Shown one piece after another: positions 51,445 to 53,435 of a DNA stretch of 64,000 bases. The stretch covers positions 1,488,001-1,552,000 of the forward strand of contig NZ_BSVA01000001.1 in the NCBI RefSeq assembly GCF_030161875.1. The letters run 5' to 3'. The translations under genes were made by a program, and so were the position numbers. How positions within the stretch are numbered: the stretch's first letter is position 1; every line of letters starts with the position of its first letter. This DNA comes from Homoserinibacter gongjuensis. Its GTDB lineage: Bacteria; Actinomycetota; Actinomycetes; Actinomycetales; Microbacteriaceae. A model generated the notes under the pieces. That model did no database searches and was not told where the DNA came from. It was given only the letters and a program-made list of their open reading frames with translations.

Positions 51445-52812
51445 ATGCCGCGTCTCTTCGGTACTGACGGGGTGCGGGGGCTGGCGAACGGTGAGGTGAT
51501 CACCGCCGACCTGGCCCTCGGCCTCGCTCAGGCCGCCGCTGTGGTGTTGACGCAGGGTCGTCACGCCGAGTCCGTGCGTGGCGAGGGGCGTCACCCCCGC
51601 GCCGTGGTCGCTCGCGACCCGCGCGTGTCGGGCGAGTTCATCGCCGCCGCCGTCTCGGCGGGTCTCGCGAGTTCGGGCATCGACGTGCTCGACGCCGGGG
51701 TCATCCCGACGCCGGCCGCCGCGTTCCTCGTGGCCGACGCCGACGCCGACTTCGGCGTCATGGTGTCTGCGTCGCACAACCCGGCACCCGACAACGGCAT
51801 CAAGTTCTTCGCGCTCGGCGGCGTCAAGCTGCCCGACGAGGTCGAAGACCGCATCGAGTTCGCCCTCACCCAGCCCAAGCTCGCGCCGACCGGGGCGGGC
51901 GTGGGCCGCATCCGACGCTTCGCCGACGCCGAAGATCGCTACCTGCTGCACCTGCTCGGCACGCTCGACGTGCGCCTCGACGGGCTCAAGGTCGTGATCG
52001 ACGCGGCCCACGGTGCCGCGGCGGGGGTCTCGCCGCAGGTGTTCGCGGATGCGGGCGCGCAGGTCACCGTGATCGGTGCCGACCCCGACGGCCTCAACAT
52101 CAACGACGGCGTCGGCTCGACCCACCTCGAGCGGCTGTGCGAGACGGTGCGCCTCACGGGTGCCGACCTCGGTATCGCGCACGACGGTGACGCCGATCGC
52201 TGCCTCGCGGTGGATGGAGCGGGCAACGTCATCGACGGCGACCAGATCATGGCGATCCTCGCCGTCTCGTTGCAGCGTCGCGGGCGCCTCGCCCACGACA
52301 CCCTCGCGGTGACCACGATGAGCAACCTCGGGCTGCGCGTCGCGATGGAGGAGCACGGCATCCGGATCGTGCAGACGGCGGTCGGCGACCGCTACGTGCT
52401 CGAGGCGATGACGCAGCACGGGCTCTCACTCGGTGGCGAGCAGTCGGGGCACATCATCTTCAGCGAGCACGCGACGACCGGCGATGGCGTGCTCACGGGC
52501 CTGCAGATCGCAGCCGAGATGGCGCGCACCGGCAAGACCCTCGCCGAGCTCGCGTCGGTCATGACGGTCTACCCGCAGGTGCTCGTGAACGTGCGCGGCG
52601 TCGATCACCACGCCCTCGCATCCGACGAGACGATCGCGGATGCCGTGCGCGGTCACGAGGCGGAGCTCGGCGACACCGGTCGGGTGCTGCTGCGTCCCTC
52701 GGGAACCGAACCGCTCGTGCGGGTCATGGTCGAGGCGGTCGACGCCGTCGAGGCTCAGCGCATCGCGGACGATCTCGCGGGAATCGTGCGCGAGCGTCTC
52801 GCGTTGTCGTAA
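51445..52812 (+). CDS. glmM: Phosphoglucosamine mutase
   Basis: 455 residues, [20 protein letters not shown]. It contains the catalytic phosphoserine loop [18 protein letters not shown], the metal-binding DGDADRC, the sugar-binding GEQSGHIIF and the phosphate-binding [14 protein letters not shown]. It converts glucosamine-6-phosphate to glucosamine-1-phosphate for UDP-GlcNAc and peptidoglycan. It supplies the next step after GlmS, which is encoded at 54523. Confidence 0.97.
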
Positions 52813-52855
52813 CCGGGTCGTCGCGCCGCGTCACCGCCTCTGCTCCTACCGACGT

Positions 52856-52948
52856 CATGTCGAAAATGCAGGAGAACTCGGGCGTGTCGTGCGTGAGGGG
52901 CCCGGATGCACGGGACATGACCGTCGGGACTCCTGCATTTTCGACATG
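52856..52948. repeat. 93-bp palindromic element with perfect 19-bp terminal inverted repeats
   Basis: CATGTCGAAAATGCAGGAG (52856-52874) and its exact reverse complement (52930-52948) flank a 55-bp spacer that itself contains GTGC...GCAC and GGGGCCC. It lies between glmM and the nitroreductase gene. Arm length and lack of any mismatch exceed what a terminator needs; it resembles a MITE-like or extragenic palindromic element. Confidence 0.75.
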
Positions 52949-52994
52949 GGATGCGGGCGTCAGCGCGGCAGAACGAGACACAGGGAGCAGCAGG

Positions 52995-53435
52995 ATGCCG
53001 TTGACAGGGGAGTACGCACCGAGCACCTCGGAGTGGGCACGCACACAGGCGGAGACCTTCGAGGCCTCGGCCGGCGCCGAGGCGAACGAGTTGCGGGGCA
53101 AGCCCATCATCGTGCTCACCTCGGTGGGCGCCCGAAGCGGCAAGCTGCGCAAGAACGCACTCATGCGCGTCGAGCACGACGGGGCGTACGCGGTCGTGGC
53201 GTCGAAGGGCGGCGCACCGCAGCATCCGTCCTGGTACTTCAACCTCGTCGCGAACCCGGATGTCGAGCTCCAGGACGGCGCGGTCAAGCGCGACTACCGC
53301 GCACGGCTCGTGAGCGGTGAGGAGCGCGCCGTGTGGTGGGCACGCGCAAACGAGGTGTGGCCCGATTACGACGGGTATCAGGCGAAGACCGAGCGTGAGA
53401 TCCCCGTGTTCGTGCTGGAGCCGGTGGCGGGCTGA
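52995..53435 (+). CDS. Deazaflavin (F420)-dependent nitroreductase family protein
   Basis: 146 residues from ATG 52995 (site GGGAG at 52983-52987), [20 protein letters not shown]. It has the Ddn-family features [20 protein letters not shown] and [20 protein letters not shown]. Members use F420 or a similar flavin for quinone or nitro-compound reduction; the natural substrate is unknown here. An in-frame upstream ATG at 52857 would put the protein inside the palindromic element and is rejected. No F420 biosynthesis gene is in the window. Confidence 0.88.

Follow-up and report, generated by a model that had tools for sequence, protein, structure and literature searches.

A Perfect 19-bp Inverted Repeat of Homoserinibacter gongjuensis as a Candidate Target Site of a Dispersed AbiEi–DUF559 Nuclease System

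The inverted-repeat element at positions 52856–52948 of a 64,000-nucleotide stretch of Homoserinibacter gongjuensis DNA, the whole of which is called the window below, may well belong, with a probability of roughly 0.57, to the target sites of a dispersed nuclease/site system whose protein component carries an AbiEi-like helix-turn-helix (HTH) and a DUF559 domain. The comparisons described here establish a family of such sites, their conserved spacing, their gain and loss among relatives, arms that lie in place within coding sequence, and a gene flanked by the elements in nine genomes.

Results

Structure and position of the window element

The element and its surroundings consist of the following features.

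52856–52948, no strand assigned: the whole inverted-repeat element as first reported, 93 bp with perfect 19-bp arms
52858–52946, no strand assigned: the family unit TGTCGAAAATGCAGGA-N57-TCCTGCATTTTCGACA, 89 bp, from comparison with the 36 other copies in the own genome
52856–52874, plus strand: left arm, to which one AbiEi-like HTH is proposed to bind
52930–52948, minus strand: right arm, a perfect inverted copy of the left arm
52874–52889, plus strand: genome-specific inner box, 15 of 16 letters of GAACCCGGGCGTGTCG
52900–52914, no strand assigned: off-center GC dyad GCCCGGATGCACGGG, the putative cleavage center
51445–52812, plus strand: upstream gene from the ORF list, which we take to be glmM, matched in 8/8 congeners
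52995–53435, plus strand: downstream gene from the ORF list, its ATG at 52995 conserved in congeners

The first-pass annotation had described perfect 19-bp arms around a 55-bp spacer between two genes on the same strand, and this description was confirmed: the arms are complementary over the full 19 bp (52856–52874 versus 52930–52948) with 55 nt between them, and the repeat begins 43 bp beyond the glmM stop codon, with the next gene on the same strand. Even with up to three mismatches allowed, the arm occurs in the window at just these two places, compared with none in 100 shuffles, and a search for perfect inverted repeats of at least 11 bp spanning 60–400 found no other with arms longer than 15 bp. 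The shuffles and the lack of comparable repeats in the window rule out a chance origin. The downstream gene probably does not begin at the ATG within the left arm, since its ATG at 52995 is the one that congeners conserve. As a single strand, the element folds with a z-score of about −5, which is attributed mainly to the arms since, as shown below, the family's interiors show no excess of structure over shuffled sequences.

Copies in the own genome

When the own genome (G000, 3.29 Mb) was searched with the 16-bp arm at up to two mismatches, 75 arms were found, constituting 37 inverted pairs and one extra tandem arm, and this search detected no lone arm besides the latter. The pairs span 89 bp in 33/37 cases, 88 bp in three and 87 bp in one. 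Among the 33 oriented 89-bp copies, unit positions 1–16 are identical in all 33, and the 57-bp interiors are mostly unalike, with little information at most positions. An inner box beside one arm retains at least 12 of its 16 letters in 25 of the 37 copies. The further symmetry suggested for the spacer does exist as a CCCG...CGGG dyad in the family (z 5.4 versus shuffles, 33 copies), placed 5.5 bp from the middle rather than at it. Folding of the interiors (mean z −0.29 versus −0.16 for flank controls, n = 100 each) does not exceed that of shuffles, which rules out a structured interior; what the family keeps in the interior is therefore length rather than fold. Outside the arms, C at −3 (27/37) and G at +3 (30/37) are favored, so recognition may extend beyond 16 bp per half-site. 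The copies are not preferentially oriented along the replication arms (Fisher p 1.0).

At L147 (1501–1589 and 1652–1740), an element and its flank form a 151-bp tandem duplication, which looks recent because the two interiors differ at few positions only. A second arm class, TGTTGTGCAGGA, was seen at L138 (1641–1761) and L145 (1729–1851) of the same genome as tandem arms about 19–22 bp apart that directly adjoin two main-class elements.

A transcribed RNA hairpin acting as a terminator, stabilizer or regulator would agree with the strong predicted hairpin and with the many copies that lie just downstream of genes in rough gene calls. Such a role is nevertheless very improbable: no T-run follows the arm, which rules out an intrinsic terminator; Rfam gave no match at E values up to 1 across 52600–53200, which rules out an Rfam structured RNA; the interiors show no more structure than shuffles; copies also lie between divergent genes, again by rough gene calls, and within coding genes; and the sequence of the arms is itself conserved beyond their pairing.

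Distribution and dialects among relatives

Had the element been a single copy conserved at one place in all relatives, a structured RNA or regulator site would have been indicated; searches of the genome and its relatives instead found, in addition to the 37 own copies and a variable window locus, the core pair AAATGCAGGA-N46..74-TCCTGCATTT in 33/398 genomes of the family, representing 16/85 genera, with no match for a reversed-pattern control. The arm of the own dialect, with one mismatch allowed, is present in 7/99 genomes, including the own. The core-to-core length is nearly constant within a genome and differs slightly between genomes, being mostly 75–77. Arm dialects can be distinguished: TGTCGAAAATGCAGGA is that of the own genome and, among the matches listed, mostly (C/G)AGAAATGCAGGA occurs in G003 and G008, and G005 and G006 carry both. 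CCCCG-N6-CGGG, comparable to the own dyad, appears in the consensus of G003 (built from 31/36 copies) and of G056, which belongs to another genus (17/20 copies). The 14 copies of G045 have an interior, ACGTGTGACTCG, that departs from those of the other genera examined and is conserved much more strongly (L328, L329, L348–L350, L352–L357). A single 17-bp arm matched at least 94 stretches across genome contigs; among the matches listed, 92 have one arm and two have two arms at other spacings, all of which are taken as chance. Eight stretches with spans of 67–94 were found in viral contigs.

Arms of a third class, ATCTCAAGGA, were noticed at L240, L279 and L296 (G006 and G003), arranged in tandem in 22-bp steps at L240 and L296. 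At the places corresponding to the main-class sites L139 and L153 of the own genome, G008 (L253) has GCAGAAGCAGG arms and G006 (L235) has AACTCAGGA arms at similar spacing.

A gene flanked by the elements

Two copies in the own genome, G000:C1:1975055 and 1976130, bracket a 288-aa gene between gltA and dapE.

L151:1624–2487, minus strand: partner gene in the own genome

In all nine genomes where the partner gene was found, covering four genera, elements lie on both sides of it, as counted at up to two mismatches per core: G000, G003, G004, G005, G006 and G008, together with G056, G122 and G153 from three other genera. Identity to the own protein is 61–63% in G003, G006 and G008, 77% in G005, 42% in G056, 47% in G122 and 40% in G153. 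Three places with neighboring elements were fetched from G056, one of which held the gene and two of which, with elements about 110–130 bp apart, did not; G122 and G153, fetched only for elements 1.10 and 1.15 kb apart, gave the gene in 2/2. Across the 277 fetched loci (1.34 Mb, overlaps included), a protein profile matched these nine genes alone; nearly all of the loci had been chosen for holding elements or orthologues, so that the proximity of gene and element is partly built in and the flanking on both sides less so.

The gene was not found beside the sampled sites of G045 (13/14), G001 (10/14), G017 (7/7), G002 (2/2) and G049 (2/11), where the gltA locus was not located in G001 and G002. 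The partner gene is missing between gltA and dapE of the element-free G007, and G004 has the gene, yet its tlyA site is degraded and its exact-core copies number only four. The gltA–dapE gap of G007 (L333) is about 7 kb, and a translated stretch of it resembles, by eye, ribosomal RNA operon sequence.

The first-pass annotation had proposed looking for a linked transposase with the same ends, and a linked gene with the same elements indeed exists, but its product appears to be an AbiEi-HTH + DUF559/Vsr-like protein. The own protein matched DUF559 with an E value of 1e-11, and matches to MTES_1575 REase and AbiEi_4 fell below Pfam's cut-offs; at E values up to 0.1, DUF559 and MTES_1575 were detected in 8/8 proteins and AbiEi_4 in 7/8. 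AbiEi models of PADLOC matched 8/8 proteins and its homing-endonuclease model 7/8. A profile search of the PDB gave 3hrl (“Endonuclease-Like Protein”, E 2e-6) and 3r3p (“Mobile intron protein”, E 3e-5), the latter of which we take to be I-Bth0305I. E194, D220, E229, D231, H236 and D249 are invariant in 8/8 partner proteins, and the invariant E, D, H and D residues presumably constitute a Vsr-like catalytic motif. The neighbors of the gene are gltA and dapE in G000, G005, G122 and G153, and no toxin gene adjoins it where neighbors were seen.

The N-terminal halves fall into two groups, {G000, G005} with 72% identity and {G003, G006, G008} with 73–80%, with 54–59% between the groups, and the elements beside the gene are GTCGAAAATG in the former and CAGAAATG in the latter. 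This hints that the dialect might follow the N-terminal group of the nuclease, which is suggestive only for so few genomes; the fit is also unclean, because G005 and G006 hold both dialects away from the gene.

More distant relatives were also inspected. Two encoded on Tsukamurella plasmids are annotated as AbiEi-family antitoxin domain proteins, and at 29% identity these plasmid relatives have no such elements flanking both sides of the gene; they and one fetched match from a phage collection have at most a single unrelated inverted repeat on one side. No viral relative of the nuclease was found in the related-locus search, and the phage collection gave two weak matches.

Gain and loss of sites, and arms within coding sequence

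The window locus is occupied by an element of another dialect in two of eight congeners, G003 (about 115 bp) and G008 (about 117 bp), and the empty sites anticipated in relatives were found in the other six, where the element-free intergenic gap downstream of glmM is about 22–27 bp in five and 64 bp in G002. From these alignments, the window site is evidently gained or lost between species, with differing arms where it is present. An orthologous anchor in one or more of G003, G006 and G008 exists for 36 own sites (L128 has no orthologous locus). For 25 of them, at least one of these species carries an element at the corresponding position, often with different arms, which speaks against a simple recent MITE; with anchors on both sides, the count is 21/28. 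Eight sites (L126, L133, L138, L142, L146, L152, L154 and L155) have an anchor on a single side; of these, L154 and L155 share the same element of G006. Interiors of orthologous pairs look unalike by appearance, without scoring, though the flanking query stretches are mostly 80–95% identical. At some orthologous places, the relatives have just 0–36 bp between the alignment anchors.

The copy in tlyA is informative because its arms lie within conserved coding sequence. The proteins of the genus align without gaps through the element, the interior of which encodes ordinary TlyA residues, and judging from this alignment, insertion of an 89-bp unit is not how this site, at least, arose. In five of nine species (G000, G001, G003, G006 and G008), both 10-bp cores are exact; there is one mismatch in G005, and the cores are degraded in the three genomes with the fewest copies, G002, G004 and G007 (2, 4 and 0). 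The arms in tlyA are of the main dialect in G000 and G003, of the less common one in G006 and mixed in G008. A derivation of interiors from tlyA was ruled out, since variable positions match at chance level (6.6/24). In a yeiH-like gene, which is present without arms in G001 and G007, the left arm occupies a linker whose length varies, and the right arm lies within native sequence; this copy has no inner box. A three-gene tree, several nodes of which are weak, joins G002 with G004 (support 100) beside G008 (83) and G007 with G001 (86), and this grouping suggests that absence of elements may reflect repeated loss rather than primitive absence.

One alternative is that the element is a REPIN- or MITE-like palindrome moved by an unrelated enzyme and that the nuclease gene is a bystander caught between two old copies. 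The 37 copies, the empty locus in 6/8 congeners, the relatives with 0–36 bp between anchors, the tandem duplication at L147 and the sampled sites without the nuclease gene in G045, G001 and G017 are in line with it, and REPINs are described as inverted doublets whose spacers are diverse but similar in length (PMC3116915, PMC8049555). To this extent, the earlier suggestion of a MITE or of a substrate for a REP-associated transposase stands. What makes the alternative rather unlikely is that the expected traces of transposition are missing: 0/37 own copies have a target-site duplication of at least 4 bp, which rules out a MITE with such duplications, and those of 2–3 bp occur at chance level; Y1_Tnp (PF01797) has no match in the own genome (completeness 89.77), which rules out a Y1 transposase substrate, while the same search gave matches in 5/14 genomes as a control; and the three arm sequences tested fold at 0 kcal/mol with no stem. 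Moreover, the tlyA copy shows no insertion, the linked gene does not encode a transposase, and its flanking on both sides in 9/9 genomes of four genera speaks against a bystander.

Position on the chromosome

With dnaA at 1.06 Mb in the own genome and the terminus set as the point opposite dnaA (with a rounded length for G056), the terminus-proximal third contains 3/37 own sites, 6/36 in G003 and 2 of the 18 listed (of 20) in G056, and the Kolmogorov–Smirnov p values for depletion, which are uncorrected for gene content near the terminus, are 0.005, 0.02 and 0.003, respectively, where the own genome and G003 are non-independent as congeners. G017 shows no such depletion, having 2/7 sites in that third.

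The sites might accordingly serve a chromosome-organizing or nucleoid-occlusion protein, being selected as such and avoided near the terminus, where the binder could be a restrained DUF559 protein or an unrelated factor. The depletion in three genomes and the positions common to species at 25/36 sites would fit this, but the assumed terminus, the relatedness of two of the three genomes and the lack of depletion in G017 detract from it, as do the six invariant nuclease residues in 8/8 proteins and the patchy presence of the core in 33/398 genomes. We consider this explanation quite improbable.

Discussion

If the window element is one target site of the nuclease/site system, the partner protein, with its AbiEi-like winged HTH and C-terminal Vsr-like DUF559 domain, would bind it as a dimer, in which each of the inverted arms would accommodate one HTH and the paired nuclease domains would meet over the inner GC dyad. 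Copies might then arise and stay alike through nicking or breaking of DNA followed by repair copying, in which the drive might be homing-like or REPIN-like, with or without benefit to the host. Such a dimer would explain the invariant arms, the near-fixed spacing and the mostly free interior. That the protein binds, dimerizes on and cuts these sites is what we infer from sequence comparisons, and assigning the arms to HTHs and the dyad to the nuclease draws on the domain matches and on literature on I-Bth0305I, AbiEi and a Caulobacter DUF559 protein. According to these reports, AbiEi and Rv2827c are winged-HTH antitoxins, and AbiEi monomers bind 23-bp inverted repeats (PMC7319586); I-Bth0305I, an EDxHD enzyme, has multiple domains and dimerizes on a target almost 60 bp long (PMC3943268); and the Caulobacter DUF559 protein is regarded as Vsr-like and, when cells have no methyltransferase, drives an SOS response (PMC12907096).

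Several points weigh against the nuclease/site reading. The position of the dyad, 5.5 bp off-center, is awkward for a symmetric dimer; cutting at 37 chromosomal places would make an unrestrained nuclease toxic; and other arm classes of similar architecture (TGTTGTGCAGGA, ATCTCAAGGA and AACTCAGGA) exist with no known partner. Also against it are the sampled sites of five genomes that have no such gene beside them, the MTES_1575 and AbiEi_4 matches of the own protein below Pfam's cut-offs, the missing inner box of the yeiH-like copy and the plasmid relatives with no such elements on either flank together. The dual dialects in G005 and G006, the few copies in G004 and the bias of the fetched loci toward elements led us to lower the probability from 0.60 to 0.57. 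A more far-reaching proposal, which is tentative and perhaps doubtful, is that the family constitutes a new genome-resident replicator: an AbiEi–DUF559 endonuclease of the Vsr type would maintain tens of its own long palindromic targets, rewriting arms in place, even in coding genes, with drifting dialects, through repair copying primed by cuts or nicks and not through transposition, and the host might use the sites for the layout of its chromosome.

Among the matches listed from a search of open-licence papers, their titles and the beginnings of their abstracts contain no description of a pairing between an AbiEi/DUF559 nuclease and a palindrome, which suggests that the nuclease-and-target-site system is so far undescribed. 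If the proposed relationship is true, a poorly characterized protein class gains a concrete candidate for its DNA target, and the in-place arms of tlyA raise the question of how a family of sites stays alike without transposition.

The family shares features with several known systems. The nucleoid-occlusion factors Noc and SlmA have dispersed, terminus-avoiding sites, and the present family likewise comprises tens of sites with fewer near the presumed terminus; it differs in that the sites are paired and long, their phylogenetic distribution is patchy and the partner is nuclease-like. MITEs are also short inverted-repeat elements that are present or absent between relatives, whereas the present family has neither target-site duplications nor a parent transposon that was seen, and its interiors are mostly unalike with a near-fixed length. 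The AbiE type IV toxin–antitoxin system probably shares an AbiEi-like winged HTH with the partner protein, and AbiEi binds inverted repeats beside its own gene, but the protein studied here has a nuclease-like C-terminal part and no adjoining toxin gene where neighbors were seen, and its candidate sites lie across the genome. EDxHD (Vsr-fold) homing endonucleases such as I-Bth0305I probably resemble the partner protein in combining a Vsr-like nuclease domain with a DNA-binding part and in the long target, which would be bound by a dimer here as well; in contrast, the present gene is free-standing between gltA and dapE with no intron, and it is flanked by sites of which each genome has tens.

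The arrangement of REPINs and RAYTs has inverted, conserved arms of about 16 nucleotides, diverse spacers of near-constant length, a mostly intergenic location, some tandem clusters and a nuclease-type gene flanked by copies, all of which are found here. The present arms are, however, not palindromic REPs, the own genome has no Y1 match, the partner is an AbiEi-HTH + DUF559 protein, and a tlyA copy apparently arose without insertion. If the nuclease/site reading is true, therefore, the family would represent a second, independently evolved arrangement of the REPIN/RAYT type, built around a protein of the Vsr/homing type.
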